Source: Gaeumannomyces sp. JS-464
Lineage: Eukaryota > Ascomycota > Sordariomycetes > Magnaporthales > Magnaporthaceae
Length of the DNA: 64,000 bases
NCBI GenBank assembly: GCA_002197995.1
Contig: NGZR01000006.1
Coordinates: 1,787,001 to 1,851,000 of the forward strand
Direction of reading: 5' to 3'
The notes under the pieces are model-generated. The model did no database searches. It worked only from the letters and a program-made list of their open reading frames with translations, and had not been told where the DNA came from. Of this stretch, positions 1 to 44,097 are shown piece after piece (positions within the stretch are counted from its first letter, which is position 1; every line of letters starts with the position of its first letter). A program made the translations under genes and the position numbers.

Positions 1-394
1 AAAAGTTTTTTATCGTGGATTTAGTAGTTTAATTTAAATCCATATAACTTTTGCGAAAAAACCGTATAAAAGTACAACCGCTTTTAACTGTTTCGCTTTC
101 CGAGTTAACCGCCGATCGTATAATTTAACGCGTTAGTTTTAACTTTAAAAGGTTTTTTTAAGTTTAGGAATGTTAACATTAGTTTTTTTAACACGGCGTT
201 TCGTAATTGTTTAAAAGCTTTTTATTTTTGCTTTTTTTAATAAAGCTAGTGGTTATTTTTAGTAAAGTTTGTATATAGTATAGCGATTTTGTTATATTTA
301 CGGATAAACCGTTTATAAAAGTTTAAATTTTTTAAAAACCTGTGTATTTCCGTAACGTTTTTAAGTATAAACCAATTTTTAATTTCTTTTACTT
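1..394 (-). mobile_element. Ty3/Gypsy G1, left fragment (RT C-terminus / RNase H start)
   Basis: On the minus strand this piece aligns base for base, in the same orientation, with 47,428-47,824 inside G2. Differences are mostly RIP-type transitions. The corresponding G2 stretch translates with stops to the RT thumb and the start of RNase H, including a TNASDYAIGG motif (family TDASxxAIGG, with D changed to N). The match stops at about 394, and the next part of the same element resumes at 41,608. This fragment and 41,608-44,097 are therefore read as two halves of one element split by an insertion. It continues beyond the left window edge. Confidence 0.8.
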
Positions 395-429
395 ATAAAA
401 TAAAAAAGTCGCTGTTAAAGCCGTTAAAG

Positions 430-1050
430 TCGGCGGGTTTTAGCACTGTTCTCGGCGGCAAATGCAGTTAGCGGCGCTTGGACCAAGCAGGTACCCAGCC
501 AGGTATTAAGTACTTCGACGGCCTGCATTAAGGACTTTGCCAGGACCTTAGCGGTGGCCAATTAGGACCCACTCCTTACAACCCTAAAAGTGTCCAACTT
601 TTGGAACTTGGCGGTTCGGATTTGGCCAAAGCATTTTCGACTTTAAACGACGAACCGACAGGAAATTATAGCTGCTATTCGCTATAAATGGCGGCAACGC
701 CCTCGTCGGCCTTCGCTAACCTTCGTTAATCTTCCATGCCCCATCCGTTAAAAAGTCGCTTATACAACCGCCGTCCGCCCCCCCACGACAAAATCGCACA
801 CGCAATAACCGAGCCATTTCCATAGCGCAGCTTGCGACCGTTGCCGTTCGCCAACCCGGCGCTAGCGGCCCTTTTAACAACCATGCCCACTTTTTTGCGC
901 AAATTGCGAAGCGAAAGGCACGCAAAGGAGTCGATAAGCGACCAGCGCCGCTGTCCGCCGAGGAGCATGCAACGAACCGAAAGCGATTAGAGCGCGCCTT
1001 CGTTAAGCCCGTTTTAGCTAAAGCAAGCCAGATTAACGTCGCTAGCATTT
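430..1050 (+). pseudogene. Possible Zn(II)2Cys6 zinc-cluster fragment, RIP-damaged
   Basis: This segment is richer in GC than its surroundings. On the plus strand, near 829-915, it reads AACDRCRSPTRR, stop, RPF, stop, then QPCPLFCANCEAKGT. Cys-x2-Cys followed by Cys-x3-Cys-x2-Cys and basic residues resembles the N-terminal binuclear zinc cluster of fungal transcription factors, but one expected cysteine is not visible and the spacing is imperfect. The same frame continues with stops to about 1,045. No start codon or downstream regulator domain is recognised. It could belong to the following DUF3435 locus or be independent. Bases 430-800 contain nothing else I can name. An open minus-strand frame over 716-1,048 has no recognisable motif. 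Confidence 0.3.
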
Positions 1051-1059
1051 TTAAAAAAT

Positions 1060-3400
1060 AAAAACGGTATATTTTACGACCTTAATTAAAATACTATCCG
1101 CTAACTCCCGGGCAAGGTATTGCAAGGAGAAAAACGTGGGCAATCCGAAAGCGATTTTAAAAAGCTTGCAACGAAAAACGACGATGGATTTTTTCCTTTT
1201 CGTTTGCGGGAATTACATTATTAGGTTATAAAGCACGACGCACGTATATATCCGCCAGTTTTAACAGCTATATACCGTAATTACGGGCCGTTTTATAAAC
1301 CGAAATAACGCAAAGGAAATTTACAAAGTATTACGAATGCTTCCTTTTACGCTTAACCTTTTTATATTTAACCAGCGCTAACATATTACGCTTAATACTA
1401 TCGTTATGTTTTAATCCTTTGCTTCGGCTTCCCGGCTTTTAATATCCACGGCAAACTAGTTGTTAACGTGGCCGAGCTGCGTATTATCCTAACGTTTAAT
1501 ATCGCTTACGATATAAGCATTTTCCCCGGCGAACGGCATTGCATTAACCTCGCGGGTTGCTATATAATTTAATGCTATACCGGGGTTAAGCCCACCGAGT
1601 TTATTTATAACGAAAAAACCGAAACCTAAAGTTGCGAAAAAGCTTTTCGGCTGCAAAATCGTTTTTTCGTTTAGCGCCGACCAGGGAAAAAGCGAAAAAA
1701 GGTATAATAAGTTAAACGATGCGGCGCTTAATAAAAAGTCCCAGCGGGTAAACGAGCTATTTTTGCGAAAACCAAAAAACGGGGCCGGCCGAAAGCTTTT
1801 TGCTACGAAAATATTTTTTTAATAATCGTTCGCCATTTAGTAACGCGTTAAGCAACCCTCGCGATAGCTATTAAATTTGTCCATTACAAAGGTTCGAATA
1901 ACAAACCAAAACTGTAAGTATTACGCCCGCCGTACGCGATTTATGTAATTTTATTATTTTAACTATCGCAAAACCATTTTTTATTTTACGCTTATTAAAA
2001 AATTAATTTTCTATTTTATTAGTATTATTATCGCGCTCGCGTTATATAATTACGCTTTCGACGCGCTAAGTTTAATAAACGCTTCGCAAATGCTTAATAC
2101 GAATATTTCGGGGTTTAAAAAATGCATGCTTTTGCGGTAAAAGCAATTTATGTTTAAAATCCCCGTTTTTCGTCGCTTTAATTATAACGAAATCCTTTTC
2201 GATATTAAAGCTATGCTTTATGCTAAGCTTAAAAATAATTTGGGCTAATAAAGCTTAAAAGCGGGATTTAAAGTTTGTTAAATTTTAAAGTTTTTTCGTA
2301 AAAGAACCGCGAACGTTGCGAACGATATAGCCCATTTAAAAAAAATTAACCAAAAGCTTAAATAATTTAGCTAAAGGAAACCGTTAACTTAAATCCAAAA
2401 AACGCTTTAAACGTTGTTCGAAACTAAATAATGCGCTATAATTTTAAGTTTTTCACTTTTTACGGCGTTTACTTTAACGAAAAGGTTAAATTCGATTTGC
2501 AAAACACCTTTTTCGAAAAAAAAAAACGGAAAATTAGTTATATAAATTGTTTACGCACGTTAATATTACCCGCGACCTTCGGGCGAAACGTAATATAGTG
2601 CTAGCCGAAATATGGGCAAACCTGCTTTTAAACCCTAAAATTGTCGAATTAAAAAAGTAATAAATAGCGTTTAAACGAGGATAATATCGTATTTACAATC
2701 GGGAAAACGAAAAAGCGGTTCGCGTATTTACCGAGGAAATTAAACGCAAACGAGCGTAACGCGAAAATAAGGTTATAAAATAATATCGCGAATATTACTT
2801 TTACTACCGGCTAATTTGGGATATTAAAAAGCAAGCATTAAGCGAAATGGGAAAGGAATATAAAAAGCCCAAAATGGAGCTTAACATTTTTAAACGCGCA
2901 CGGTTTACCGAAATTTGGTATAACTAGTTTAATAATTGGTTTAACGACGAAATTTTGCGCTACCGTATTAAAGCTATTAATTTAATGGTGTTTTTTTGCA
3001 ATAAGCGAAAAACCCGTCGGCGCGACCATATCCAACAGCGAAAGCAAATCGAACCTTTTATTAAGCAAAAGTCGCCGAATTTTTCGCTTAAACCCGATTC
3101 GTTCCCGCTTTTAATAAATCCGAACTAATACCCCGATTGCATTAGCGACGGCCGGCTTTCGACGGTGGAACGGACATTTACGTTTTCCCGTTCGATTATC
3201 CGAAACGACCATTTCGATAACCAGCATTTTAAAGCACGCGAATTCGTTTAGCGCCGTGGCGATCCCATTCGTTATAAGCACCTTAAATATGTAAACGTAA
3301 AACTAAAAATATTGGATCACTTTCGGAACCATATTATAGCTGTTTATAAGGTCGCATTTCGACCGGCGGATTAGGCGAAAACTTAACGACGTAAAAAAAC
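1060..3400 (+). pseudogene. DUF3435 / FluG-domain tyrosine recombinase-like pseudogene (captain candidate)
   Basis: The plus-strand reading, interrupted by many RIP-type stops and a few frame changes, follows fungal DUF3435 (FluG-domain) proteins. The N-terminal part shows NDDGFFLFVCGNYIIR and HVYIRQF near 1,180-1,250. The middle shows FDALSLINASQMLNTNISG near 2,060. The catalytic-like segment shows MRYNFKFFTFYGVYFNEKV near 2,430-2,490, where the Tyr before FNEKV could be the recombinase tyrosine. The C-terminus shows LFTHVNITRDLRAKRNIV (2,549-2,603) and the family tail STVERTFTFSRSIIRNDHF with a His-rich end (3,160-3,290). DUF3435 contains the captain recombinases that mobilise Starships. 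It is the first recognisable large gene inside the insertion edge and points inward, the captain position. No functional start can be chosen. Non-captain DUF3435 proteins also exist. Confidence 0.65.
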
Positions 3401-6265
3401 CAAGCATTGCAAAATGGCTCGGGTGCAAAAATAAAAAAGGTAAAGCAGCTCCGCGGGCTAGCATTGCCAGCTTGCTTTTTCCGGTCGTAGCTTTAAATTT
3501 TATATTGCATATAACATATTTTACGTTAGGCATTTTTTTTTAAAAAAAAAAAAAATAATAGTTCGCTATCCGTTACGCGGTGTTACGATTACGAAATACA
3601 AGTGTACTTATTCCAAAGTAAAGTGCTTTAAATCGAAAGTAGTAAACCAAATAACTTTGGGGTTTTAAAAAATAAAGCTCGATAAATGCAGTTAGCAAGT
3701 GGGTAAATTAAAATGCAAAATAAAATTAGCTTATAGCGAGCTTTAAATATTATTAATTAAGGTATTTGTACGTAATAAACCGTATATTTATAATTAGCGC
3801 GCTATAAAAAAGTGCATTCTTAAAACTAAACGCAAAATAAGAAAAAAAGTTTGCTATATGAGAACGTAGCATGGGAAAGCAATATGCTGCCTCGTATAGC
3901 TTTAAGGTAAAAGCCAGCGTCCAGGCTGGTTAACACTTGCAGCGTTATACTGCTTAGTGGTGCTTATGCTGTGCGTACAGCCGTTATTAGCATGGATAGG
4001 CCATGCGGCGAAGCCAGGAAACACCATTGTTTATCTGCTTATAAGCGCCCCCTACCGTCGCCGTGGCGGCAATCCGCAATCGCCTTGCATAACACTTTTT
4101 AAAGCGCGCTAATCGCAAGTATAACCGCTTTGCAAACGGACGAGGACCTAGCGGCCTTACCGTAATGCTATCTAAATCCACCAGGCTAGCAGCCACCGCC
4201 GCCGACGTCCTCTTTACCCTTGCTGTATTTTAAGCCGATATTTGCGACGACCCTTTTAACGCGAATCGCTAATGTTATAACGATTATCGGCCACAGTTTT
4301 AACCGCGGTGCCGCCATTTCCCGGGTTTAATCGGTTAAACATTTATATGGGTGCACTTTTAACGTTAGGTTTCGCGGGGAGCAGAAATCCGCGGGCGTTA
4401 CGCTATAGCCCGATACGCACTAACCGCATACGTAAAGGATAAGCACGGTACGATATAGCAATATAAGCGATTATTACCCCGATGCTTTAACGCTAAAACG
4501 ATATGGGATAACAAACGCCCGATATTATATAGTATAGTTATAAAAGTTAAAGCCGGTAAATAAAAATGGGAGCCGAAATATTAAACGTAAAAGCATTGCT
4601 TTTGGTTACCATTTACACGATGGTTATTAAATGGTGTATTTCGAACGACGCTTATCTAAATATATTAGCAATTAAAAAACTTTCCCGCTTTACGAGCCAC
4701 GTACCGATTCGCTGGTAAACCGCATACGCTACGGTGCCGGAATCGCTTAAAATTTACCGTAGTTTATTCGCTTTGCGTTTCGCTATCGGAGGAATATCGT
4801 AATTAGCATCGGCGGTTCGCGAAGCGGCGAGGAAGGGATTTCCCGATTGGTAGCTGGTATTCCCGATTTAAACGTGGGCGTTCCTAATAACGCTAGGATT
4901 ATTAATTGCGTTTAACGCTATGCTTTTGCTTATACCTGTAAGTACCGGTGCGGTTAATTGCGTTATTCGTATGTGCTGGGCATTAAATCCCCGTTAAGGT
5001 AAAACGACGGCGCTGCGTTAGGTTGCGTCGGCCGCGGGGCGTAAAGCAAGCGGCTAGTAATTAGGGATCCAGGCTTAGCTGCTTAAAGGCAGGGGTAAAT
5101 GGCGGGGTTATATAGTTGCATTTTATAGCGGGGCTGCGCTTGCCAATCGTTTACCCCGCATGCGGCTTTTTGTTTTGCAGTTAAAGGTTAGCGGCGCTAA
5201 TATGCGCTTTAAAGCGTTAAGCCCAGCGGGAATTGGCTTTACCAACCTATCGTCGCCTTTAACCGGACCGTCGTCCGGCGCCGTTTTATCCGTTTGGGGC
5301 AATTGCTTTACGTTAATAAAGCGGAGAAATATCGACTAGCATAGCCGAAATAAACGGACCTATTTTATGCAATTATCCGCCGAAACGGTATCGATAATTA
5401 TCCCTCGTAATTATGCCGATATAAACCACCGATTTGCTTTTAGCTGTTAATAAAATATGCATACCGCGATTAGGGTAAATGCTTCGAGGCTTTGCACGGC
5501 TCCCGTATTATATGGTGGCGGCAAAGCCCGTAAATTTTAAGGTCCAAAGCGGGCTAAAAACGTTGCACCATACGTTATGTTTACAACGGATAAGGGATAA
5601 TTACGAGGCCGTAAAAGCCCAAAATCGTTATTGCAAACTAAAAACGTTAAACGAAGATTTTTCCTCGTTAAATATAAGCGGTAGTTAAGCAAATACAACA
5701 CGCGAGTCGGGCGGATAAATATTGCAAACGTGGATTGATAAAGGCGATGGTTTGTACGCTTAAAGGGCTGTTTAAATCGGCGGTGTACTTTTTGCGAGCG
5801 CATTTGCGTTAGTTATAAAACGCATTTAAAAGGCTGCTAAAATGTTTTAATTAATTCGAATTGCGAACAAAGGTGGCATAAATTACTGGGAAGCTTTACG
5901 ACCTTTAAGGGAAAAAAAGCAGAAAAAACTATGTAGTTACTTTTATTTAAAGCAATAACCTATTAAAAGATAATATTCCTAATACAAGCGAAAATCCGTC
6001 ATTTTGTCCTCCTAACGTTTAAGGTGTAACTCCGTACTTTTGCAATGTTTATAGCTCCAAAATTCCTAAGGCTTTTTGTGCTTCTCGAATCGCGTTTTAA
6101 AGCCGATCCCGATCTACTTGATAGGTACGGACTGTTTTAAATCCCTTTGGTATGTTAATGCAAATCTCGTCGTCCATATACCAGCTAAAATGTTTATCTA
6201 AGCTCCTTTTTAGCCAAACCTTATACAAAGATTATGCATTCCAAATAAAAATATCTACTAAAAAG
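3401..6265. other. Unassigned RIP-degraded segment
   Basis: No confident gene is found. An A/T homopolymer lies at 3,533-3,553. Between about 3,980 and 5,950 a plus-strand frame shows partly protein-like stretches, for example SIGGSRSGEEGISRLVAG near 4,810 and KLKTLNEDFSSLNISGS at 5,634-5,684, separated by RIP-type stops. I do not recognise the protein. From 6,000 to 6,265 a minus-strand stretch reads MDDEICINIPKGFKTV near 6,170, also unassigned. Composition suggests degraded duplicated DNA, possibly old cargo of the enclosing 41-kb insertion. Confidence 0.4.
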
Positions 6266-6345: not shown

Positions 6346-6364
6346 GAAAAGGAGGAGGAGGAGG

Positions 6365-7050
6365 AGTATATTTAACGTCGGTAAGTCGGAATTTACCAGT
6401 CCTTGCCTTCCGAAGGGCATACGACGTGCTAGCGCTACCTAAGCTAAATATTAGGCTACATGTTGCTATCCGGCGGCTAGCAGAGTTAAACCCGAAGGCA
6501 TACGAAGGTCGGGCCGTATTCCGGCGCTTTTTAATAGTAAGCGGGCGATCGGCTGTAAGGCGTATATATACGCCGGGGCGTTGTAAGCGCTGCGGGTGGT
6601 AGTAGTGCGTTCGGCCGGCAAATGTGCCGGAAAAGGGGGCGAGGCTAGGCAAAGGGTTTTTGGGACCGCCTTTAGGCCCGGCCGGGGATCGCGGGGGGCT
6701 AACGAGCTTATTGTTAGTTTGAAAGGTACAAAGGAAAAGGCGCAAATGCAAAGGAAAAAGGGAAAAAGGGAGGGAAGTGGGTGTAAAAAGTAAAGGGAAA
6801 GGTAGTTAAGTTATGTACGGGCTATTAGCCCTATTATTATCGCCCGGCGATAGTGTAATAGTTGGTAGCCTTGACGAATGAAACAAAAAGGGAGGGCTTT
6901 TGTAATAGCCGTTTCCAATACCCGGGCTTATCGAAAGTCGGGGCAGGGTCCGCTATAAGCCATTTGTTTTCCGTAGCCCTAGCTAATTTGCAAAATGCGG
7001 GGTGGAAAGGAGATTTGTTTTTCCTATAGCGGCACGGATTATCGTCCATA
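6365..7050 (-). other. LINE copy 1, 3' UTR
   Basis: The stretch is colinear with 36,100-36,736 (copy 2); its 3'-terminal ~350 bp also match about 37,500-37,852 (copy 3). An internal minus-strand frame encoding LGSASTSYA is shared with copy 3 and changed by RIP in copy 2. It looks like a translation of UTR rather than a real gene. The last conserved bases before the simple-repeat tail are the complement of AGTATATTTAAC (6,365-6,376). Confidence 0.6.
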
Positions 7051-7559
7051 TGTTTAAATTTTCGGTGGTACCTATTAAAGTTCCGTGGCCTATGCGTGCG
7101 GCTATTAACCGCTGTAATACTTTCCGGTATAACTGTAAAGCGTTGGGTGTGCGTTATGGTATCGGCGAAAGGCCTATATTTTATATCGTTCCGGGAGGTT
7201 TTTTTCGAACTAAGCGTTCCGGGTATCCCGGGATATTTTTCGGGCTAGTATTTTAACGCCGGCTATTATTAGTTTAATGTGCTGGGTATCGGAAGGGCTA
7301 TGCTTAGCTTCGCTTCGGCGTTGGCTTTTTCGTTTCCAGGGATTCCCGTGTGGCCCGGGGACTAACGGACGTATATTTGGTACTTATTTATAAAGCACTA
7401 AACCTTTTTAAAAGCCTTTTGCGAGCTATTAAAAGCCGTGCTTAAAAAGCCGTTGGCCGCCGAGGTGTTATTAAAGCATAAGTATATCAATTGCGGAAAT
7501 TCCAAACGGCTTTGCGAAGGCCTATCCGGGCCCTTTTCGTTTCGCTATCGAATACTTCG

Positions 7560-10500
7560 GCGGGGTACGCCAATTTGCCGTGCTTAAATAGTTTGCGTTG
7601 GCCGGCTTAGTATATTACCCAGCCGTAACCAATTGCTTCGTTTTCCGCTTTAAATCCGCCGTTATAAATTATAACGTCCGTAAAAAAAAGGGTGCTAAAC
7701 CACGCTATAAATGCTTTAGCGATTGTTTGCTTTTTTTATGTAGCCACCGTAAGCCTCGTATATTTATAAGGGAGGTAAGCCGGGCGAGTGCAAGCCGGCA
7801 AAAAATCGGCTATTTTTTATAAGCAGGTCGTTTGCTTGCTAAGTAAGCCCGCTTTAAGCCTTCGGGCGTTTAGCGTTAGTTTAGCCGCGGCGGTTAAAAG
7901 GTGGGCTTTCGGGATTATGTTAATGCGAGCTGCAAAACGAAAGCGGACTTATTTTAAAAGCGCTTCGGCGTTTGGGATGCCGGACTCGTAATGCAAAGCT
8001 TTTATCGGTATGGTTTTCCATGCTAATACCACTGCCCGAAAGGCCGCAATTAAAGCTTTGTTAACCCGTTTAATTAGGTGGCTTTGGCGGATATATTGTT
8101 ATTATGCGAGTTTATATAAATGTGGTTTAGTTTTGCCCTTATACTATACCTCGGCCCCGTATAGCGCTGTTGGGATAATTACCGTTGTAACGGCTTTATG
8201 CACCGAGTGCGCCGGTATCCCTCCTACCGAATAGGTAAGCTTTCGAAAATGGTTAGCAACGTTAAAAACTTTGGCGACCTTATTATTAATATATGGCTTA
8301 AAATTAAGCCTTTGGTTGAAAAAAACGCTTAACCATCGCAAAATTGCAAAGCTTTTAGGGCCTTTTATAGCTTGTTATATGGTTAAGCTTTCGGCTTTAA
8401 CCGTTGGGGTTATAAGGTTTTTTTGCTTGGAAAAATGCATAAGTTCGCATTTTCCCGGGTTAAAAGCAATTTTATTAGCCCTACCTTAACGGAAAATTTC
8501 CGTTACTATTGCTTTTGCTTTACGGAAGCACTTTTTTAAGGAGTTGCCCGTTACGCATATGCCTATATCGTTCGCGTATTCGTATTTAACCCTTTTGGCT
8601 TTAGGTAGGATTTCGGCCATATATAGCATAAATAAAACCGGTAAAGCCGGTAACCTTTGGGGTAGCCCGCAATCCGGGGAAAAGGGGGTTATTATAACGT
8701 CCTCCAAACGCATTTAAACTAGCCTATCCTTTGCGAAAAAAGATACTTACCGTACTAACGTTAAATCCCATTTTTGGTTTAACAGCCTCCGAAAAAGCCT
8801 CCGGCGAAAAACGGCGTTAAAAGCCCCTTATACGTCCATTGTAATAAGGGCGGCCGTTTTGTAATTTTGGAAAGCTCGTTTTACCTCGTAAGCTACGCAC
8901 GCCGTTAAATTGGTGGCGGCCTTTTTAAGGGTCGCTTTAGCGTGTTACGAGGCTATTAGCCCGTATTATAGGGCGAAAAACGCCATCCGCGAGGCTATTA
9001 AACGTTTTATCCCTTTCCCTAAGCACGGAAGCAGTGCTATCGGGCGGTATAACTTTAGGTCGGTTATATTCGATTTGTTTAGCTTTTTAAGCATAACCAC
9101 CTCCGCTGCACGGAAAGGGCTTAAGTGGTGCCCAGCCCTAAAGCATGCTTCGAAAAAAGCCCTAACGTATTTTCCTATTGCTGGCCATACCGTTGTAAGC
9201 AGCTTAACTAATAGGGAGTCGACGCCCGGGGCCGTGTTTGCCGTGCTAATAGTGCACTTTCGGCACTCCTCCAAAAGGACGTGGGGGTTCCACGGGAGTT
9301 GTGCGGTCTTTTTGGAAATCTCCTATTGCAACGGGTCTTCTTATAAGTCGTCCTCGGCCGTAAACCTACGGAGGATTTTGCGGCCTAATGCTTCCGCTTT
9401 TTCTTTTAGGGCCACTATCGCTTCCCCGTCGGTATTTAACGGGGGAAGCCGTATAACGGGTGTAAGTTTGTGCCATTTTACTGCACGGTATAACGCTTCC
9501 GGGGAATTAACTTCTTCCAACACGTTAGCCCAATGCTGTTTTTTGGCTGCCCGAACCGTTGCTTCCAAAGCGTGGGCTTCGGCCGCAACCAGCCCGCCCT
9601 TTGCCGTGGCCTTTGCCAAATCCCTTTGTGTGGCGGCGCACTTTTCGTTCCACCACGGTTAGCCTTTTCCTTTGGCTTTAGGCCTTTTGCCGAAAGTAGC
9701 CAGCGCACTTTTTAGCAGGTTTATTAATGCTTCGGCCGCTTGGTCCAAGTGAATTGTAGCATGCAAGCCCGCAAATGGTGGCAAGCTGCTAGCCCTTATT
9801 GCTACCACGTTTGCAAACATTGGTAGTTTTTCCCCGGGAAGCGTAATACGCCGGCAGTTTAAGGTAGCGTTAATTGGGTAAGGGATTTCGATCCGGATAG
9901 TGCGATAGTTTAAGTTAGTTATTAAATTAGGGTCGATTTCCGCTATTGCTAATGGGGCGTTAATAAAGGCAAAGTTTAGCACACCTTTTTGGTCGTGCGT
10001 GGGTTTGCCCGGGTGGGTAAGTAAAAATAAATTGCAAAAGTCGGCCTATTAGGCTATTTTTTTGCCCCTATTCCTATTGCCCTAAGCTGGGTCCCAAACC
10101 GTAAAAGCAGCGTTAAAATCCCCAGTTATAATGCATTTCGTTATTAGGCGTTAACGTAATAACAAGTTTAAAGCGGGTTTTAAAAAGTCCTATAAAGGCT
10201 TATATACGTTAACGAAAGTGCACTTAAAAATTGTAAACCAAAAGATATCTCGCGTATTGCTTGCTAGCCGGTTCGCTACTAGTTGCAACTTTAAGTCCTT
10301 TCGTACGTAGGTTATTACCCGAGGCTTAGTTTAATAATCGTACCAGCTATTTACCGGAGTAAATAGCTCGTATAACGGGTAAGTGCATAATATAAACTTT
10401 TTTTCCTAAGCGATGGGAAGCTTTTATATTAAAACCATATCGATTTTATAGCTTTAGCATAATTGGAACAAAATTACCGCCGTAACCCAGTTACGTTAAA

Positions 10501-10770
10501 CGTTCGCTTAAGCGGCGGTTAAAACCTCGCGGCGGCGTTTAAAGCATAGCCTTTAGCGTCGGGTTTTACTGCCACACGCTTTTTTTTAGTTAGCTACTGG
10601 CATAAATAAAAGTGGCATTGGTATATTAAGGGCTTTAGTTTTAAAGCTGTGGGCCGGCGGGAACGCCGGTATTTTTCGAGGGGTTTTCGGTTATTTCGAT
10701 AACATTTTTAAGCTCGGGGGGTTTAATTCCATATTCGCTAACATTTCGTATTAATTATTAAAACTAACCT
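7560..10770 (-). pseudogene. LINE copy 1 ORF2: endonuclease, reverse transcriptase, RNase H
   Basis: The sense is minus. The APE-type endonuclease occupies about 10,770-9,700, with a GDFNAAF-like box near 10,120 and an open frame at 9,659-9,982 covering its end. The RT occupies about 9,620-8,140. It contains NTAPGVDSL (9,230) and the YRPIALLPCLGKGIKRLIAS block (9,000-9,050). It also contains LPQRLPALPVLFMLYMAEIL followed by the catalytic box at about 8,560, which reads YANDIGI where YADDIGI is expected, a G-to-A change on the sense strand. An RNase H remnant near 7,690 reads YNGGFKAENEAIGYG, where copy 2 has YSDG. Stops and the two lost aspartates make it non-functional. Several plus-strand open frames here, such as 8,910-9,662, are antisense shadows. 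Confidence 0.8.
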
Positions 10771-10789
10771 TAAGCTTTTTAATAAAGCA

Positions 10790-20125: not shown

Positions 20126-20129
20126 CGGA

Positions 20130-28836: not shown

Positions 28837-28841
28837 AAACC

Positions 28842-31049: not shown

Positions 31050-32395
31050 TTTTCGGCCTACTTACGCCGGCCGAAAAGGAAAAAAGCTTATACGGGGCCC
31101 CGGAGCCCCCGCAACGCGCGCCCCCGGCTACTTACGCGTCGGTAGCTCGGGAAGGCCACTAATAACCCCAACAACCCGCACAAGCTTTTCGGGGCCGTAC
31201 GCTTTAAACTACCCGGGCACCCCGCCCATTAATAGGCTTTAAAGCCGACTTTCGGGTGTTCGTTAGGATCCCGGAAAAACGGCAGGCTTAGGCCAACTAA
31301 TAAACGGGTTTTAGCATTTGCAAAACCCTTGCCGATAGTAGGGATTTGCCGTTTACGACGGTCGATATCCCGGAAGCGTACCGATTTTTTACCGGATTTA
31401 TATTAAAAGCAAAAACGGCCGATATCCAAAACCGGCTTTTGCAATACCGATCCGAACTAGGCCGTTTATATAACGTTAAAAGGATCGAAAAGCCCGAAAT
31501 TTAATACAATTACGTAATTTCCGGCTGCTTTATTTTATTAACTAACGGCTTTGGATAATGCGTTCCGGTATCGGATAAATTGGTTTGGGAGGAAATGAAA
31601 GCTTAAATAAAGTATAAACCGTAAACGTTAAGCCTTTTAAAACCGGCGTCGACCATTAAAAGCGTATATCGTGGATTATATCCCTTTATACGCAAATGGC
31701 CGGGTTTAAACTTTAAAAAATCACTTTTTTTTACGCCGCGTATAACGATACCCGCCGGTTACCCAGCACACCTTTGGCTGCCACGGCTTCCACGTAGCCC
31801 GCAATTGCGCCCGGGCCGATAAGTGCTTTTAATGCGGGAAAATAAACGACGACCGGCACGTACAACCGTGTACAGCTCCCCCGCAATGCGCGAACTGCTT
31901 GGGCCCGTACTTTGCCAACCACCTAAACTGCTTTATAAAGCCCGTACGGGTAAACGAAGTGCTAAAGCATTTAACCCGTAGGGAAAAAAGGGCTGTTAAG
32001 AGGTTAAGCGCATAAGCGTACCGGGCGGCGGCAAAAGCGGCGGAAGCCGCCGTTGCCACCGCCACCGCCGTTACCGCTGCTACCGATAATACCTTTTCCG
32101 CAACCGCTATTATTACGGGCGGTTCCGCCGTAGCCGTTAATTTAACGGCAAACTTTACGACCGCTACCGCTATTACTGCGGCTACCGTTATTACTATTAA
32201 CGATACCGCTAATACAACCGATACCGCCGTTGTTAACCTTACGGCTAATACCGGTATCGCCGTTATTCCAGCCATTTTTATCGCCGCTGCCACCCCCGCC
32301 GCCCCCGCCGTTACCTCCGCCGTTATAAACCCGGCAGGCCCGCCGGCCTCGAAAGGCGTGGCCCGTACGGCCGGTAAAAAAAGCACCTTGTTAAA
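31050..32395 (+). pseudogene. LINE copy 2 ORF1 (gag-like) with CCHC zinc knuckles
   Basis: In the plus sense, near 31,760-31,910, the frame reads FGCHGFHVARNCARADKCF, stop, CGK, then PPQCANCLGPYFANHLNC: zinc-knuckle arrays of ORF1. An Ala/Thr/Val-rich tail follows (31,990-32,390), ending GVARTAGKKSTLLKN. The upstream region 31,050-31,700 is probably the N-terminal part but is heavily mutated. Minus-strand open frames at 31,731-32,386 are antisense. Confidence 0.7.
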
Positions 32396-32429
32396 AAACT
32401 TAGGGTTAATTTTAACAACTAATACGAAG

Positions 32430-35400
32430 TATTAGCGGATATAAAACTGGACTTCCCCGAGCTCGAAAGGGCTATCGAAATAACCGAAAACCCCCCGAAG
32501 GAAACCGACGGTACCGCCGGCTAACAATTCCAAAGCCAAAGCCCCCAATACATTAACGCCGCTTTTACGTATGCCAGCAGCTAACCGGATATAACAAACG
32601 CATGGCAATAAGGCCCGGCGTTTAAGGCTTCGCCCTGAACGCCGTGCTTTAACCGCCGTTTAAACGAACGTTTAACGTAGCTGGAAAACGGGGGCTACTT
32701 TATTCCAACTATTTTGGAGCTAAAATATTAACGTGGTGCTAATGTAGGAGCCTTTTAGCGCGTGAAAAAGGAAGTTTATACTTTACACCCACCCGTCGTA
32801 CGAGCTATTTACTTTAGTAAATAGCTAGCACGACCACCAAACTAAGCCTCGGGTAATAATTTACGTACGAAAAGACCCGGGGCTTCGGCCCGTAGCGGAC
32901 CGGCCGGCAGGCAGCACCCGAAACATCTTTTAGCTTACCGTTACCGGGTGCACTTTTATTAACGTATATAAACTTTTAAAAAACCTTTCGAAACCCTCGT
33001 TAAACTTTTTACTACGTTAACGCTTAACGGCAAAATGTATTATAGCTAAAAACTTTAACGCAAGGTTCCCGGCGTGGGATCCGGTTAAAGGTAATAGGAA
33101 TAAAAGCCAGGATATAATTTAATAGGCTAATATTTATAACCTTTTCCTACTTACCGACCCAGGTTAACCTACGTATAACGATAAAAGCGTTTTGGACCTT
33201 ACCTTTTCCAACGCCCTTTTAATAACAGCGGAAATCGACCCTTCGCTAGCAACCGATTCGGACCACCGCTCGATACGAATCGAGGTTTTTAAACCTAATA
33301 ACTCCGTTCCGAACTGCTAGCGTATTACGCTATTAAACGATAAACTACCGATTTTCGCAAACGCGGTAGCAACGAGGGCTGGCAGCCTACCGCCATTTTT
33401 AAATCCAAACATTACGAATTATTTGGATAAAACGGCCGAAGCATTAACAAACCTGCTAAAAAATGCGTTAATAGCTTTCGGCCGGGGGCTTAAAGCTAAA
33501 AGAAAAGGCCAACCCTAATGGAACGAAAAGTGCGCTAACGCCCAACGGGACCTCGCAAAAGCTATGGGAAACGGCGGGCTTTTTACGGCTAAAACCCGTG
33601 CTTTAAAAGCAACGGTTCGAACGGCTAAAAAACAGCATTAAGCCAGCGTGCTAAAAAAAATGGATTCCCCGAAAACGCTATACCGTGCTGTAAAACGGCA
33701 TAAATTTACACCCGCTATACGACTTCCCCCGTTAAATATTAACGAGGAGTTTATAATAGCCTTAAAAGATAAAGCGGAAGTATTAAATCGTAAAATCCTC
33801 CGTAGGTTTACGGCGGAGGACGACTTATAAAAAGACCCGTTATAGTAAAAGGCTACCTAAAAAACCGCACAAATCCCGTGGGACCCCCACGTCCCCCTAA
33901 AGAATGCCGGAAATGCACCGTCGGCTTGGCAAATACGGCCCCGGGCGTCGACTTCTTAACGGTTAAACTGCTTACAGCGGTTTAGCCGGCAATAAAGGAA
34001 TACGTTAAAGCTTTTTTCGAAACCTGCTTTAAAGCCGGGCACCACCCGGGCCTTTTCCGTATAGCGGAAATGGTTATGCTAAAAAAGCCGAATAAAACGG
34101 ATATAACGGACCCAAAATCCTACCGCCCGATAGCTTTGCTCCCGTGCTTAAAAAAAGGGCTAAAACGGCTAATAGCTTCGCGGATAGCGTCCTTCGCATT
34201 ACAATACGGGCTTATAGCCCCGCAATACGCCGAGGCTACCTCGAAAAAGGCCGCCATTAATTTAACGGCATGCGTGGCTTATAAAGTGAAACGGGCTTTC
34301 CAAAAGCATAAATCGGCCGCTTTCGTTACCATAAATGTGCAAAGGGCTTTCGACGCCGTACTCCGCTAAAGGCTTTTTCGGAAACTTTTAAAGCAAGGTT
34401 AGGATTTAACGTTAGTACGATGGGTATTATCTTTTGCAAAAAATAGGGTGGTTAAAATGCGTTTGGAAAACGCTACGGCACCCTCTTTTTCCCCGGACTG
34501 CGAGCTACCCCAAAGGTTACCGGCGTTACCAGTTTTATTTATGCTTTATATGGTTAAAATCCTACCCAAAGCAAAAGCGGTTAAATACGAATACGCGGAC
34601 GATATAGGCATTTGCGTAACGAGTAGCACTTCGGAAAAAGTGCTTCCGTAAAACAGGGGCAACGGTAATGGAAATCCTCCGCTAAAAAAAGGCTAATAAA
34701 ATAGCTTTCGACCCGGGAAAGTGCGAGCTTATGCACTTTTTTAGCGGAAAAATCCCACAACCTCGGCGGTTACGGCGAAAGGCTTTACCATACAATAAGC
34801 TATAGGAGTTTTACGGTAGTTAAAAGTCCTTTTTAACCAAAGGTTTAATTTTAAAACTTACGTAAATAATAAGGCTGCAAAAGCCTAAAACGTTGCTAAC
34901 CACTTCCGGAAGTTTACGAATTCGATAAAAGGGATACCGGCACATTCGGTTTACAAAACCGTTATAACGGTTATAATCTTTACGGTTTTATACGAAACCG
35001 AGGTATGGTATAAAAGTAAAACTAAACCACACCCGTATAAGCCGGCATAATAGCAAATTATTCGTTAAAACCATTTAATCGAACGGGTTAATAAAGCTTT
35101 AACCGCGTTTTTTAAAGCAATAGTTTTAATTTAAAAAACCATATCGATAAACGCATTGCATTACGAATTTGGCATTTTAAACGCCCAAACGCTTTTAAAA
35201 TAAGCCCGCTTCCGTTTTGCGGCCCGTATAAATACGGTTCCGGAAAATCACCCCCTAACCGCAACGGTTAAACCGGCTTTTAACGCCCGAGGGTTTAGGG
35301 CAGGCTTACTCGGCAAGCTTGCAACTTTTTTGCAAAAAACGGCCGGACTTTTTCCAGCTTACACCCGCCCGGCTTACCTCCCTTATAAATATATAAGGTT

Positions 35401-35640
35401 TACGGTGGCTATATAAAAAAAGCAAACAGCCGCTAAAGCATTTATAGCGTGGCTTTATACCCTCCCACTTACCGACGTTATAATATATAGCGACGGGTTT
35501 AAAGCAAAAGACGGGGCAGTTGGATACGGCTAAGTAATATACCAAACCGGCTAACGCAAACTTTCCGGGCACGGCCGGTTAGCGTATCCGGCGGAAGTAT
35601 TCGACGGCGAAGCGGAAGGGGCCCGAATAAGCCTCCGTAA
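32430..35640 (+). pseudogene. LINE copy 2 ORF2: endonuclease, RT, RNase H
   Basis: The endonuclease begins near 32,690 (NINVVLM, stop, EPF, family pattern xxDVVLxQEP). RT spans about 33,560-34,700, with open frames at 33,648-33,830, 34,070-34,369 and 34,448-34,651. They show MLKKPNKTDITDPKSYRPIA, LPQRLPALPVLFMLYMVKIL and the catalytic box YADDIGICVTS, which is intact. RNase H near 35,485-35,540 reads YSDGFKAKDGAVGYG. It is closed by stops between blocks. The function would be target-primed reverse transcription. Confidence 0.85.
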
Positions 35641-36770
35641 AGCCGTTTAAAGCTTCCGCAATTGCATTTTCCACTTATGCCTCGATAACACCTCGGCGGT
35701 TAACGGCTGTTTAAGCACGGCCCTTAATAGTTTATAAAAGGCTTTTAAAAAAATTTATTGCTTTATAAATAAATACTAGGTATACGTACGCTGGTCCCCG
35801 GGTTATATGGGAATCCCCGAAAACGAAAAGGCAAACGCCAAAGCAAAGTTAAAATCGGCCTTGCTAATACCCTAACATTTTAAACTAACGGTGGCCGGAA
35901 TAAAAACTTTAGCCCGGAAAACAGCCCGGGACGCCCGGAACGCATGGTTTAAAAACAACTTTCCGGATCGGTATAAAGCTATAAGCTTTCCGCCGGTACT
36001 ATAACACACGCTCGAAACGTTGCAATTGCACCGAAAGGTATTGCAACGGCTAATAACCGCACGCACCGGCCACGGGGATTTCGACTAGTACTACCGAAAG
36101 TTTTAACACGAAAACGATAACCCGTACCGTTACGGAAAAAACAAATCCTTTTCCCACCTTGTATTTTACAGGTTAGCTAAAACGGTAAAAAACAAATGGC
36201 TTATAACGGACCTTCCCCCGGCTTTTAATAGGCCCGGATATTAAAAACGGCTTTTTTAAAAGCCCTCCCTTTTTGCTTCGTTCGTTAAAACCACCAACTA
36301 TTACACTATCGCCGAACGATAATAACAAAGCCTAAAAAGCCTATATTTAACCTTTTCCTTTATATTATTAAAATTAATAGTAGGCTCGTTAATCCCCTGC
36401 ATTTTAGGCCGGGCTTAAAAGAGGTTCCGAAAACCTTTTCCCCCGTTTAAACCCGGCTTTACCCTTTTTCCGGCATACCCGCCGGCTAATAGCATTATTA
36501 CCACCCGCAGCGCTTTATAACGCCCCGGCGTATTTTTACGCTTTATTATTAATTGCCCGCTCGCTAATAAAAAGCGCCGAAATGCGGCCTAACCTCCGTA
36601 TGCTTTCGGGTTTAATTTGTTAACCGCTTTAATAGCAGCATATAGCCTAATATTAAGCTTAAATAGCGTTAGCACGTTATATGCCTTTTAAAAGGCAAAA
36701 ACTAGTAAATCCCGATTTACTAACGTTAAATATACTTATTTATTTACTTTTTTTCTCACTTTTTACTTTC

Positions 36771-37495
36771 CCCCGAAAAATTCTTCCTAACGGACCTACT
36801 GTTAATGGCCGTTAAAAAAGCCCGGCCATTTTTGGTACTAATTCCACCAAAATAAGTCGGAAACGCTATGTAAACGCTAACAAACTAATTGGCTTTATTT
36901 TACCCGCGTTCGCCGGCGTCCTTTTAATAACGACGATAACGACGCAACTGGCTAAAAGTGCAAAAAAAGTAGGCTGGCAAAAGTTCGAAGTGCCTATTGC
37001 TAATTAATAAAAAAGCTTACACCCTTTACAGCCCAAAGCGCGCCTCGCGCGCGCCGAAACCTTTAACAATCGGATTGCTCCAACCTCCGCGCATTACCAG
37101 GCTAACCGCCTTTCGACTTCCTTTTCGCTTTCGCTTCGCGCACCAAACCGAAACGATTCCGAAATGCATAAGAAAATTACAGGCCGGCAAGCAGTTAAAA
37201 TACATTGGACGAATAGCCGGCCCGGCCGCCGCCGTCCCCCGCCATTTTCGGGACTCCTCGTCCTTACCACCCACGCGACTCTTCCTCGGTCGACCGCACC
37301 CACGACACGCACGGCGCAAGTTTGGCCTGCTGCATAAGCACGCACGCGCAAGATTTTTAAAATCTTAAGCGGTTTTGTTTGTTACCCGTATCGTGCACGG
37401 CTTCGATCGTCCTACGATTGCGCAGCGTATCGTTAACACGCGATAAACACACAAGGAGCACTTTGGGCTGGGAATAGGCTCTTTAACCCCCGATT
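36771..37495. other. Unassigned segment with a GC-rich part
   Basis: The part 37,010-37,480 is GC-rich with CGCGCCTCGCGCGCGCC near 37,038 and shows little RIP. Open frames on both strands (36,997-37,368 plus; 37,026-37,351 minus) overlap each other and no domain is recognised. Confidence 0.35.
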
Positions 37496-37499
37496 CTTT

Positions 37500-37890
37500 T
37501 CTTTGGCCGGGCTTAGGGGTGGACCACAGCGGTACCCCCCGCTTTTGCACCTTCCCGGCACTTTGCCGGCCGACTGCTTTTCTCTACCACTCGCGGCGCT
37601 TATTGCGCCGCTCGCAACGCTTACAGCGCCCTGGCGTTTACTCGCCCTTTTGCCGATTGCCCGCTTACTAACAAGGAGCGCCGGAATGCGGCCCGAACTC
37701 CGTGTGCCTTGGGCTTGCCCCTTGGTTTAATTTGTTAGCCGCCTCGATAGCAACATATAGCATCGTGTTAAGCTTAGGTAGCGCTAGCACGTCATATGCC
37801 CCTTGGGAGGCAGGGACTGGTAAATCCAAACTAGCTGACGTTAAATATACTCTTTTTCTCTCTCTCTTTCTCTTTTTCACTCACTCTTTT
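37500..37890 (+). mobile_element. 5'-truncated LINE copy 3 (3' UTR only)
   Basis: About 350 bp match the 3' UTRs of copies 1 and 2 in the plus sense, ending TTAAATATACT near 37,851. A CT-rich tail (37,852-37,890) follows. It is a typical 5'-truncated insertion. It retains CpA and TpG where copies 1 and 2 have TpA, so it is nearer the unmutated sequence. Confidence 0.75.
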
Positions 37891-38039
37891 ATAAGGAAGG
37901 AAAAGGGAAGAGAGGCGCGGCGCGCCGAAGGCGCGATGCGGTAGAAAAAGCGGTGCGGCGTTTTATCGCACGGGCTATTCCGCGGCGCGTGCTTACGTGG
38001 ATGCTTGCGGCGTGCGGTGAACTGCTTTACGCCGTTACA
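37881..38039 (-). repeat. Partial, RIP-altered copy of the 215-bp solo LTR
   Basis: This aligns with 12,855-13,016 in the same orientation, ending GCCGTTACA at 38,031-38,039. The other ~55 bp of the LTR are missing, where LINE copy 3 abuts. Differences include C-to-T and G-to-A transitions. Confidence 0.75.
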
Positions 38040-39660
38040 ATCATTAGGTGTTGGTCCTAATTTACACGCCTATGGCAGCGCTTTCGGAGCTAAACCTTGC
38101 TTTTTTTAAGCCTCCGATAAACAGCAACCGGGGAAAGCTTAAGCGGGGATAAACTCAACTTTAAATAATACTAATAAGCAGCGATAAGGCTGCAAAGCTC
38201 CACTTTTAGTTACAGCCAAATTACCCGGCACCGGCTTTAACCAAAACGGCTTTCCCTAAACTTGTAAAGCTATTCCCAAAACTTTAATCGCGAACGCGGT
38301 TCTTTTACCGTGTTTATATCGTCGACATGGCCGTATCCTTATCGTTAACGACGACACCGCGTAGGCAAATGCTATGTCCTAAAAGTCCACTTTTTAGGCC
38401 GACCATGGCCGCGTTTTTTGGAAGCGGCGGGGCGGGCCGGTTATTCATTGTCGAAAGCGTCGACGAACTTTTAAACGTCCATAAAGTTCCAAAAGGGCTC
38501 CCACGTATCGTCCTCGGACCGTAATCCTTTTAACGCACGAGGTACTTTGTATTAGCTTCTTCCCCGTCGCGGCCAACGATCCGTTCGACCTTGTACCTTT
38601 TGTTATTAAAGTTTCCAAAATTCGCAAATTTGTTTGCCTTAGGGGCGTGCGTAACTAATTTAACCCTCGATCGTGGTAGGAGCTTTTATCCTACCGCGAA
38701 ACGTCTTTTGGTTAGCAGCTTTTGTTAACGGCTGGCGTTTAAGCTAAGTTGTTTGCGATGCCGATGGTAAAATGGCTAAAAGAATTGGATAATCGCGGTT
38801 ACCTCGCCGCTAATAGTCGCAAATTGAAAGTCCGCATATAAAAGTGGAAAATAGCTAAAAGTTGCACTTGTAGCTTTCGGAATCCCTTATACGGGTGGCG
38901 CGCTAAAAACCGGAACTCCCGGATTTGGTTTTCGGGCTTATCGTTGGAGCCGGGTGCTGCGTAAAGCGGCCTGCTGTTCGGCAAAGCTCTTTTTGCTACG
39001 CTTACATGGCGGCTGTGGACCTCCGTTATCCACGTTAAGTCCGCTACCTTAAAAGTGGGCAGCAGTGCTGTGTTAGCGATTTTCGTTTGCGTCGTGGTCC
39101 TTTTGCCGCTTCGCGTTGCGTCGTTCGAGCTCGTCATTGCTATCGTTATCATTGGTCGTTTCCTTGGCCGCTTTATTGCGAAAGGCTGCCTCGGAAATGG
39201 GCACCTCGCTACGCAAATATGGGGCGGCCTGTTTACCGCTATAGGTTATTAGGTATTATGCTAAAGGATACTCGGTTAAGGCAGGAACAAGGCTTAGCGG
39301 AGCTAAAGGGTAAGGTGACGCTAAAAAAAGCGTTTGTTACTGCTGGCTTGGCGGAGCTTCGTCGTTTACCTTTAGGACGTTGTAAGCTTCGTTTAACTTC
39401 GGCAGCTTATCGTTTAGTGTTTGGTTTAGCATATTCCTTATCGGTCCCGGCGGAAGGGTAAAACCAATCAAAGCTTCCGACGATTTGCCGGCGTCCGGCC
39501 GCGAACCATTCCTTTTAACCGCCGAATTTCCGGCCCTATTAACTTGGCCTAGCCCGTGGATAACGAAAGCCCTTACGGCGTTGCCACCGGCGCCGGACGA
39601 CGTATTGGAATCCTAGCTTGCCCGGGCGTGTTAGCGTAACGACTCGCCTAAAAATAAATG
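38040..39660 (-). pseudogene. Degenerate ORF ending in a chromodomain
   Basis: On the minus strand, from right to left, are GQVNRAGNSAVKRNGSRPDA near 39,540 and a charged stretch NDELERRNAKRQKDHDANEN near 39,110. Next come GGPQPPCKRSKKSFAEQQAA near 38,990 and finally YKVERIVGRDGEEANTKYLV, stop, then a one-base frame change and KGLRSEDDTWEPFWNFMDV (38,450-38,595). The last part is a clear chromodomain. It may be the end of a chromovirus whose RT/IN is lost, or a chromodomain cargo protein. No integrase motif is visible upstream, which mildly favours the latter. Confidence 0.5.
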
Positions 39661-41606
39661 GAAAATTATGTACATACCTCCACCGGTAACGTTACCGCGA
39701 TTATGTCCGGTAGGGAAAAGTTTTTCGATTAGCATAAAAAAATCGTCGGATTGGCCGTTTTCATTATTAAATTCGCCATCGCCGGGGATTTCGATTACAT
39801 TTGCCTTAAAAGGTAGGTTAACGCCGTATAAGGGATTATATGTAAATTGCCGTAATAAATTTAAATTTCCGGCGGTTAATACAAAAAGCTGCCCATATTA
39901 AGCTCGAAAACCTCGGCCATTAAACTTTTAATTAACCGCAATTTTAGGGTTATAAAAAAACTAACGATTTATAATACAATGGATATTAAAAAAGAGTTTA
40001 AATTTAATAAACGCAAAAGGCTTTGGGAAAATAACTAAAGTGTAATTACATTACAAACTAACAGCTTTAAATTTAAAAACACCGGGGGAACGAAAAATAC
40101 ATATATGCATATGCGAAAAGCGTAAAGTCGGTTATAACACCGGCAAACAAAGTACAAGCAACAGTTCGTGCTAGCCATCCATAACCCTTTATCCACAAGT
40201 TTTATCGACTTTCGATAATATATAACTTGCTGCTTTTAATATCGTTACAGAAAATAAAAAAGCGTCGATTTAATAGTTCCTCGTATTTTTGCCAATTATG
40301 CAATTGCCGATACGGGAGTAAAACAACTGGAAAAGGTAACCCCGTAAAATATCGTCGTCGTTACGAATTAAATCCCTAACCTAACCACACGAAATCGCCC
40401 ACGGCGTTTCCGAAAACTGCTTAGGATAACCCGACGATATAACATAAGCTCGTTATTTCCTTTTCCTGCGCTTTGTTTCGCCTTTTAAACGGGCTTGCCC
40501 CATTTTCCCTTTTTATGCCGCTCGACGCGCGCTAATAGCAATGCGGGACCTAACTGGCGTAAAAAGGGGTTTATAAGCGCCGTCGTTTTATCCCACCGGC
40601 TTTTTTCCAAAACTTGTATTTGCTTTACTATCGCCCAAATTGCGCCAAAGGTGCGAACCTATCGTTAAATGCTAATTAGTTTTTTCCGGCGTAATTCGCA
40701 AATCGCCGAGGGCAACATGCGGTATCGCCTCCGGATTCCTTGCTTTTTTTGCTAACTCCCTTACCGGGGTTTTCATTACCCCGTTTGCGGAAAATTAACT
40801 TATTGCTTATAAATTTTAAGCGTAAAAGCCGTCGAAACCAGGTTTTGCTTTTACCTCCCGTATAACCTGCCTTTTTGCATATTTCGTCGCGGTTATACTA
40901 ATCGGTCCGATTACGACAAATAAGCTGCAAGGTAGTGGAAAAAGGCCTCCCTAAAACAAAACACAAAGGGAAAAAAAGGCTTTTTAAAATCTTTGCATTG
41001 TTAGTAACGCTTGCGGCATTTTTGTAACTAGTCGGGATAGGTTGGTTTGCGAATTGCTCCGAGGATCCTTCGAAAATACCGAGGGTTAGGAGGCTTCGCG
41101 GACGAAGGGAAAAGGCAAAAAATGGCGGGCGGGGGCCGGGCGGATAGGATCGCACGTTTAATACGAAAAAAAGGCAGGTTTTTAATCGCTTAGCGTTAAC
41201 AAGAGTCGGAAATGTCCAGTAAATAAAGTTGCGTTCGGAATTAAAGCGAATGGGAAAGTTAATAATAAACGATAATAAAAAGGGGGACGAGGGCGCAGTA
41301 ATCGCGGGATACGACGTGATTTAAAGCTAAAGCTTAAAAGGAAAAGGGATAAAAAAGGGCGTCGTTTAAGCCCAAATAGACAAAGACTAGGATCGTGGTT
41401 AAAACGCGATAATATTATAGCCTAGCGAAAAGTAAGCGGGAAAAATAAGGATATAAAGTTAAAAGTATAACAAAAGGACTTTGGGGGATTGGAGCTTTAT
41501 TTATATCGCGGCCCGAAACGTCGAAAGCACGGCGCACTGTTTGGGGAAAGCGCTATACCCGATTAAAATGGGCGCTAAACTTGGAAGGGCAGGCAGCGAT
41601 TTCGCG
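39661..41606. other. Unassigned right end of the 41-kb insertion
   Basis: RIP-altered sequence without a recognised gene. Short open frames at 39,668-39,901 (plus) and 40,898-41,155 (minus) lack motifs. The last bases before the TTTACTT repeat contain the complement of AAATCGCTG, the possible right terminal inverted repeat. Confidence 0.4.
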
Positions 41607-41607
41607 T

Positions 41608-44097
41608 TTACTTTTTTAAAATCCATATAAACCTGTCCGGGTGTAATTACGAATTTTAAAATAGCAACCTTTTGCAAATTCTATTCGCATTTTTTTGGTT
41701 TAATGAAAAGCTTTGCATTAAATAGCTTTTAAAGCATTTTATATACGTGTTATTTATGCTTTTTTATCGTTTTCGAAAATATTAAAATGTTATTTAAATA
41801 CGCGAAGATAAAAATGTTAAAATACTTACGTAGCACGTGGTTAATTATTTTTTGGAATGTGGCTAAAACGTTAATAAACCCGAAAATTATTATTAAAATT
41901 TTATAGCATTTAAATTTTATTTTAAAAGTTATAAACCACTTTTAACCTTTTTTAATTCGTATTAAATTGTAAGCTTTTTTTAAGTTGAAAACCGTAAAAT
42001 ATTAGGTTTTACCGAGTTTATTTCGTAATTTATCGATAAAAAGCAAAAAGTATCGATTTTTAATAATGGTTTTATTTAGCGGGCGGTAATCGATGCATAT
42101 TCGCTTCGTTTTTTTTTTTTTTTTATTTATAAAATCCCGTATTTTATTTAAAAGTCGGACGGTTTAATATGTCCTTTTCGTAAATTTTCTTTTAATTGTT
42201 TTTTTTAGCACTTTTTATAATTAAAAGCTAAATTAATACAATTTTTAATACTTAAACTACGTTTTTAATTTAAATTTAATTTTAAAATCAAATTGTTTAT
42301 ATTCGGGAAACACCGTTTTTAAATCTTTTTTAAACAATTTTCGTATTTATAATTTTTTTTAAAACATTCGCAAGCCGTTTTTTAATTTTAATTTAATCGT
42401 TTTAATCGCTTTTTATTTTAAATAATCGTGTATTTGTTAATATTAAATGCGAAGGTGGATTGTTAAGTTTTGTTACCGTTATAACCTTTTTTCGTCGCTT
42501 TTTATATTTACGGTTTAAAGTTTATAATTAGTAAACCGTTTTAATTATTTGTAGCTTTTCCTTTTAAATTTAACTAATAATTTAGTTTATTTGTAAATTG
42601 TTTTTTTTAAACTAAAAAATTCCGAAATTAATATTTCCTTTTTTTATATTTAATTTATTTAATATAATAATAACGTTTTCTTTATTTTAAATGCGTAATG
42701 TTATTGGTTGTGTTTTTAATCGATTTATCCCTTATTATAAACGATAGGTATTTTTTTAACCGTTTTTAATTAGTACGGTTAATGTTTTCGTTTCGTAGGA
42801 ATTTTATACCGTTTAATTGTTTATAACGACATATAATCGTTTTATATTTCGTAATTAATTATTATGTTAACCTTTTTTTTTTTAAAATTTTATTTAAAAT
42901 GTTAATAAATCGTACGGTTAATTCGATTTTGCTATTACGAAAGTTTTTATCGGTTTTTTTTCCTTCCCATTTTATGCTTTTCATTTTAGGTAGTTTTTTT
43001 TTTTTTTTTAATAAAAAAAACAAATACGTACGTTCGTTTTTTTATCCGGGTTAAACGGGATATACGTTCGCGTAATTTTTTAATGCTAAATTTCCGCTTT
43101 TTATACCATATGTTTTTTTTGCATTTTATAATTTCGCACTTTTTTAATCGAGCATTTTAGTAACGTATAATATTAAATGCCGTTTGTTAAGTTTAAAAAC
43201 TGTAACGAATTTGTTATTTTAAACTAGTTCCTACCGTGGCAATTAAAATGCTAAACGAGGTTTAATTTTTAACTTTATTTTTTAACTTTCGTAGGAAAAA
43301 ATCGTGTTTAAGTTTAGGTTGTAAATGGAATTTGCACTTTTTATAAATACATTTTGCTTAAAATAAATGCAAATGTCCAGGGTGTTTTAAATCGATATTA
43401 AAGTAGTTTTTAGGTTTTAACGCAGCTTTTTTAGCTCGTTTACGTTGTCGAAATGGTAGTTACGTATTTAACTTTTATTAATTGTTAAACTACGATAAAA
43501 GTTAACCGTTATCCTTTTTTGCCGGGGTAGTGTGGTATAACAAGCCATTTAAGTGTTCGGGAACTTTAACTTTTTAAAAACATTTCGAAATATTAAAGCG
43601 TAAAAGCATATTAGTTTTTCCAGTTTGCTTAATTTTCGCGGATTATAAATATAAAGGTTTCGCCGTTCGGGCTTTTTGCTCGTTTTTAAAACTCGGTCGT
43701 TTCGAAGTTTTAACCGTTTTCGTTCATTTCGGCGTTGGTGTTTAACTTTTCGGGTTTGTAAAAAAGATAAGTTTAACTTAAAAGCTCTTTTCGAGTTTTT
43801 CCTTTTTCCGAACCACTTGCTAAAACTGCCTTTTGCTAGGTTTAACGAAAAGCGGCGTCGTTTTCTTTTCCAAATTTTTAAACCCGAAAACGATCCGCTA
43901 TTTTCCTTTATTATCGTAACCGACTTTTATAATTTTAAGCATAACAACGTTTTGTGGTTTCCAAAAGTACTATCCGGTAACCTTTTTATCGGATTAGTAT
44001 ATAACGCACATTTCGTCGTAATAGCACATTTAGCTAAACGCCGGCTTAAAGCATAGCCTTTTTTGCGTCGGGTTTTTTTGCGTTTGTTAAAAGTTAG
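41608..44097 (-). pseudogene. Gypsy G1, RT to gag fragment
   Basis: It is colinear with 47,820-50,300 of G2 in the same orientation. The RT box on the minus strand (about 41,770-41,835) reads FIFAYLNNILIFSKTIKKHK, family pattern YLDDILIFS with both Asp turned to Asn by RIP. It ends at GTTAG (44,093-44,097), the target site of G2, and resumes at 51,699. The left edge is the TTTACTT junction. Confidence 0.85.

Follow-up and report, generated by a model that had tools for sequence, protein, structure and literature searches.

A derelict, RIP-mutated Starship with recurrent termini inside an older repeat copy of Gaeumannomyces sp. JS-464

What fills the 41 kb lying between two repeat fragments in the 64-kb window analysed here (C31:1787001-1851000, part of a 53.0-Mb genome of 34 contigs that was searched throughout): one element that arrived as a unit, or a heap of unrelated insertions? 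A preliminary description of the window had proposed that a single repeat copy, G1, is split when compared with an intact paralogue, G2 (47426-50290, plus strand), and had called both of them Gypsy elements, a label that is that description's own. The self-comparison of the window bears out the split. The left part of G1 (1-394, plus strand) aligns with 47426-47817 at 84% identity, and 41607-44098, which takes in the right part of G1 (41614-44098, plus strand), aligns with 47811-50290 at 76%. The two copies are collinear on both sides, and the alignment breaks at the insertion junction, where G2, the uninterrupted copy used as an empty-site comparison, has TAAC instead of TTAC. An empty-site query made by joining 200 bases of each G1 flank at the proposed site returned 450 candidates from the whole genome, and all 40 copies that were scored align straight across the junction. 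The flanks are therefore the halves of one repeat copy and not pieces of two different ones, and 395-41607 (41,213 bp between the target-site duplications, read on the plus strand) is a precise insertion into an older repeat copy, as judged against paralogous empty sites within one genome. We regard this insertion as a derelict Starship, one of the giant transposons of fungi, with a probability of about 0.95. The same interpretation had been offered before, and it is supported by the precision of the insertion, by ends that recur in the genome, by the remnant of a captain gene, by the pattern of RIP (the defence by which the fungus mutates its repeats) and by the existence of other copies. Directly after G2, the window also holds two copies of a 1.2-kb sequence (50280-52899), 80% identical and spaced by 1.4 kb.

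The ends of the element are not private to this locus. Searching the genome with its first 3.0 kb gave 15 matches and with its last 3.5 kb 11, the element itself included in each case, and many matches of both searches stop at the same terminal bases. A left-terminus pattern, allowed up to three mismatches, occurs at seven genomic places including the window, and a right-terminus pattern at ten. Reversed-pattern controls for both termini found no match in the whole genome; as both patterns were derived from known ends, these figures speak for their specificity rather than for the completeness of the counts. Starship copies that share these termini, and that have the captain within their left end, stand at other sites in the genome. 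Three left-right pairs share contig and strand and have equal duplications: the window element itself (41 kb, TTACTT), a pair about 127 kb apart at C30:3268822-3395716 (TTACTT) and one about 89 kb apart at C23:4586186-4675544 (TTACTA), the two larger relatives being known from their bounding ends alone. The joined flanks of the 127-kb pair had 35 matches, of which 13 span the junction in full, 20 are partial and two are the pair's own flanks; among eight of these empty-site copies that were aligned, TTAC is in register in five, one base off in a sixth, and neither in the other two.

Seven of the ten right ends and four of the seven left ends have no assigned partner, and three right ends match over their last 118-186 bp only. 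The C12 left end at 1312322 might belong with the right end at 1471178 or with that at 1563264, a choice we leave open since the duplication is not comparable: at its junction this left end falls three bases short of the others, and TTAC is missing from one of the two right ends. Right ends outnumber left ends by ten to seven, and this imbalance, together with the partial right-end matches, could be imagined to reflect a swapping of end modules within one target specificity, the captain end or the cargo being exchanged among elements that keep one right terminus, as opposed to decay of left ends; we consider such swapping improbable. Less than 25 kb from the end of the window's own contig there is a two-piece copy of the family's left part (C31:19620-24798), beyond which the right-terminus pattern search found no right end.

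At the window locus the target-site duplication is TTACTT, at 389-394 on the left and at 41608-41613 on the right. The junctions had been said to share TTTACTT, which is true of the letters but not of the duplication. A duplication of 7 bp was rejected in favour of one of 6 bp because the T preceding the right-hand TTAC is present in all nine right ends that have TTAC, whereas the base preceding the left-hand end varies among the seven left ends. Both window junctions fit the motif TTAC(N7)A, as had been claimed. Genome-wide, TTAC is found in nine of ten right ends (the exception is C12:1471178) and in six of seven left ends (C12:7211336 has ATAC), and position 12 is an A in seven of the nine right ends with TTAC, the window's included. 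Inside the edges lies a terminal inverted repeat, AAGTCGCTG at 406-414 (plus strand), which is conserved in left ends, and CAGCGATTT at 41594-41602 (minus strand), which reads CAGCGACTT in less RIP-mutated ends. This repeat had been described as short and imperfect; it is present, but in better-preserved ends it is exact over 10 bp (GAAGTCGCTG, one C12 left end compared with one C12 right end, two termini that may come from different elements).

The captain, which reads inward from a point about 430 bp within the left end, is a full-length, RIP-mutated pseudogene of a DUF3435 tyrosine recombinase (828-2888, plus strand). Its Pfam match to PF11917 (DUF3435) at 1994-2335 scores 32.5 bits against a cut-off of 25.8 and contains four internal stops; the whole genome has 21 PF11917 matches. 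A protein search with reading pieces of the C12 captain copy as query found 57 proteins, 54 with PF11917 and three without any listed Pfam domain, the best of them being RB596_004496 from Gaeumannomyces avenae (P0001; 58% identity over 99% of the query). In a tblastn comparison, residues 3-596 of the 597 of P0001 are matched in six blocks and three frames (best E 6e-94), and the DUF3435 pseudogene that had been placed at the 5' edge and pointing inward is thus upheld by domain match and protein alignment alike. Every captain copy examined has decayed to a pseudogene. Some of the frame changes are intron-like (near P0001 residues 83 and 325) and others are private to one copy; we looked for frameshifts common to the captains, which could point to movement in trans, and claim none. 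An AlphaFold2 model of P0001, for which 25 of the 57 proteins were aligned, is of low confidence (mean pLDDT 46.7), and a profile search of PDB sequences for the captain gave no match up to E = 1, so that it is the Pfam family and published work that speak for a recombinase fold. Further inside the element, 5654-6223 resembles C29:1695375-1695942 (72%), near another DUF3435 match at C29:1697324, and this segment is possibly common to two Starship lineages.

The preliminary description had also called the insertion RIP-degraded, and both the kind and the context of the changes agree with this. The composite RIP index (CRI), taken in 1-kb windows, is above zero in 56 of them and below zero only in the eight between 12 and 20 kb (-0.24 to -0.83). 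Compared with other Starship copies, the window element has transition/transversion ratios of 9.2-19.3 in seven of eight comparisons; the comparison with C30:1913203 gives just 3.3. Among the 17 segments measured were ten other left-side or right-side copies with a family end, and CRI is positive in all but one of these. The exception, the right end at C23:6741358 (minus strand), with a CRI of -0.02 and a GC content of 0.55, is the least RIP-mutated right end; no left end could be assigned to it, and the listed DUF3435 matches include none in its vicinity. Against it, 129 of the 154 differences in window 40621-41611 are C>T or G>A. The changed cytosines, counted on both strands, are 42 of 92 at CpA and 49 of 112 at CpT, compared with 23 of 171 at CpC and 15 of 166 at CpG. 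By triplet, the figures are 9 of 10 at TCA, 12 of 15 at TCT and 0 of 47 at GCG. RIP in this genome touches CpT as often as CpA, peaks at TCA and TCT, and hardly affects GCG; changes at CpT beside those at CpA are described for Magnaporthe grisea in the available extracts of PMC2621366. Taken with the Gaeumannomyces relative of the captain, this pattern suggests a host within or close to the Magnaporthales.

Much of the interior consists of nested elements. It had been described as later filled by LINEs and a Gypsy element, and two copies of one long repeat, in opposite orientation, and one LTR element do lie inside; that they came later is what we infer. The first long repeat (6364-12702, minus strand) is an inverted, 73-77% match to the second, which extends over 30477-37877 (plus strand) and consists of the repeat proper (30477-36764) and a second copy of its terminal piece (37656-37877). 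A reverse-transcriptase piece (RVT_1) in the second copy, at 33986-34366, has an E-value of 4.1e-6 and a score of 27.1 bits, below the cut-off of 29.6, and for this reason we call the two repeats probable LINEs. The LTR retroelement (20684-28836) has LTRs of about 220 bp that are 94% identical, and it is flanked by the 5-bp duplication AAACC (20679-20683 and 28837-28841). Adjoining it is a repeat of about 570 bp (20100-20680), whose copies elsewhere in the genome reach 93% identity. A short LTR-like repeat at 12802-13016 has many copies in the genome, several of them paired about 5.7 kb apart, and a partial second copy with an 89% match at 37883-38040; the former flanks the island described below and the latter the right backbone. 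Without its nested retroelements, the 41-kb element would measure about 19-20 kb, with one NLR gene aboard. An Rfam search of the 64-kb window at gathering scores found no match.

Within the element lies a single-copy, RIP-free island at about 13.0-20.1 kb, which carries a SesA-NACHT-WD40 gene (13273-18003, minus strand). A genome search with 12703-20680, in which 40 of 72 candidates were scored, found relatives elsewhere for about 12802-13016 and about 20100-20680 only; among the scored candidates, the island between these two repeats matched itself only. Pfam recognizes a SesA domain (4.7e-18) and WD40 repeats (3.3e-26), and a match to NPHP3_N (NACHT-type; 1e-4) falls just under its cut-off. 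The NLR-type cargo reported in the preliminary description is thus an NLR-type gene by Pfam, with a broken frame: compared by tblastn with Gaeumannomyces and Magnaporthiopsis homologues, it shows about ten frame changes, and it is therefore probably a pseudogene, introns and assembly error being not separated in this count. At three other SesA loci, nearly the whole domain is matched without a stop, which makes a generally faulty assembly a less likely cause of the frame changes without settling the matter. The homologue search gave 2,530 hits, 120 of them listed, and the full-coverage matches among those listed include Magnaporthiopsis poae MAPG_10160, Gaeumannomyces proteins (36-40%) and others. 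At C30:1859782-1860107, about 53 kb inward of the left end at C30:1913203, a SesA domain is split over two frames, which may mean that a broken SesA gene is present in this other copy of the Starship family, too. DUF3723, a common Starship cargo according to extracts of PMC12134995, occurs in the genome at one place only, on contig C33.

Whether the island is cargo at all deserves to be asked. It has nested repeats around it and shows no RIP, the CRI being negative in 8 of 8 1-kb windows between 12 and 20 kb, as might be the case if it had arrived after the backbone had been mutated. However, RIP targets repeated DNA, and a stretch that matched nothing but itself among the scored candidates would have been spared in any case. 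In the available text of PMC11623301, moreover, a derelict Starship is reported to be RIP-mutated except in its cargo cluster, and a sesA-NACHT-WD NLR is reported in one Gaeumannomyces Starship (PMC12134995, likewise in extract). We consider a later arrival unlikely, and the gene probably original cargo. A more radical alternative denies the Starship itself: the 41 kb would be unrelated transposons heaped up between the remains of two different repeat copies, and its DUF3435 gene a solitary one that had no part in moving it. Nested retroelements do occupy more than half of the interior, DUF3435 genes often stand alone (PMC12134995, in the part available), and most of the family's termini lack a partner. 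Such a heap is very hard to reconcile with joined flanks that cross the junction in every one of the scored copies, with the recurrence of both exact termini elsewhere in the genome, and with a 127-kb pair that has the same anatomy and its own empty sites, and we give it hardly any credence.

If the element is a Starship, as we hold, it could belong more specifically to the Hephaestus family, for which TTAC(N7)A is the canonical target (PMC12153272, in extract). The seven A residues at position 12 among nine right junctions with TTAC would arise by chance with P = 0.0035 at the mean A frequency of the window; by our own arithmetic this becomes about 0.025 at 40% A, which is closer to the AT-rich flanks. 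Against this stands the TTACTA core that extracts of the same paper report in the Phoenix elements Janus h2 and h3, so that TTAC by itself is not diagnostic. The label, which the target motif alone suggests, is plausible, and we rate it at somewhat less than even odds.

The following course of events would account for these observations. A captain of the DUF3435 tyrosine recombinase type, located inside the left end and reading inward, would move the element as a unit, as the captain recombinase is described to move a whole Starship in the part of PMC12134995 available. By recombining the element into a TTAC-type site of an older repeat, it would have placed TTACTT on either side. The existence of several copies with the same ends would then have exposed their common backbone to RIP, and the captain would have been destroyed in the process. 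The NLR stretch, being single-copy, would have escaped RIP, its frame nevertheless being broken. The nested elements, a pair of LINE-like repeats and an LTR element, would have landed inside and likewise become RIP-mutated. That it was the window's own captain that moved the window copy, that the NLR gene was carried from the beginning, and in which order RIP and the nested insertions followed, we infer from the arrangement of the sequence.

These observations show that recurrent termini and paralogous empty sites within repeats allow a Starship to be delimited from one genome even when its captain is no longer a readable gene. Searches based on the captain gene may miss such wrecks, and a search based on termini could show how many Starships have accumulated in fungi with active RIP. 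The element is also a clear example of single-copy DNA that RIP left untouched within a mutated Starship.

The element is of a known kind: RIP-mutated derelict Starships and an NLR-bearing Gaeumannomyces Starship have already been published, and the 41-kb element adds a new member. According to extracts of PMC11905480 and PMC12134995, Gaeumannomyces Starships have a DUF3435 captain in first position, as here, and one G. tritici type A Starship is gene-poor and extensively RIP-mutated, like the window element; the Starship Gt-23d_s00107 has a sesA-NACHT-WD40 NLR (PMC12134995), again as here. The family described in this study differs from these in that its captain is a pseudogene in all the copies examined, and in that its bounds were set by termini and by paralogous empty sites of a single genome. 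With the Nebuchadnezzar element and other Hephaestus Starships it has the target TTAC(N7)A in common; in the available part of PMC12153272, the target of Neb h1 and h2 is TTACA(N5)AAT. A further parallel is the derelict Prometheus Starship with the ssf cluster, which, as far as the extracts of PMC11623301 go, combines heavy RIP of the backbone with RIP-free cargo and has a nested LINE in one host's copy, much as the window element combines a mutated backbone, a spared island and nested LINE-like repeats. The spared segment is the ssf cluster in Prometheus and a broken NLR gene here, and several copies of the window family stand in one genome.
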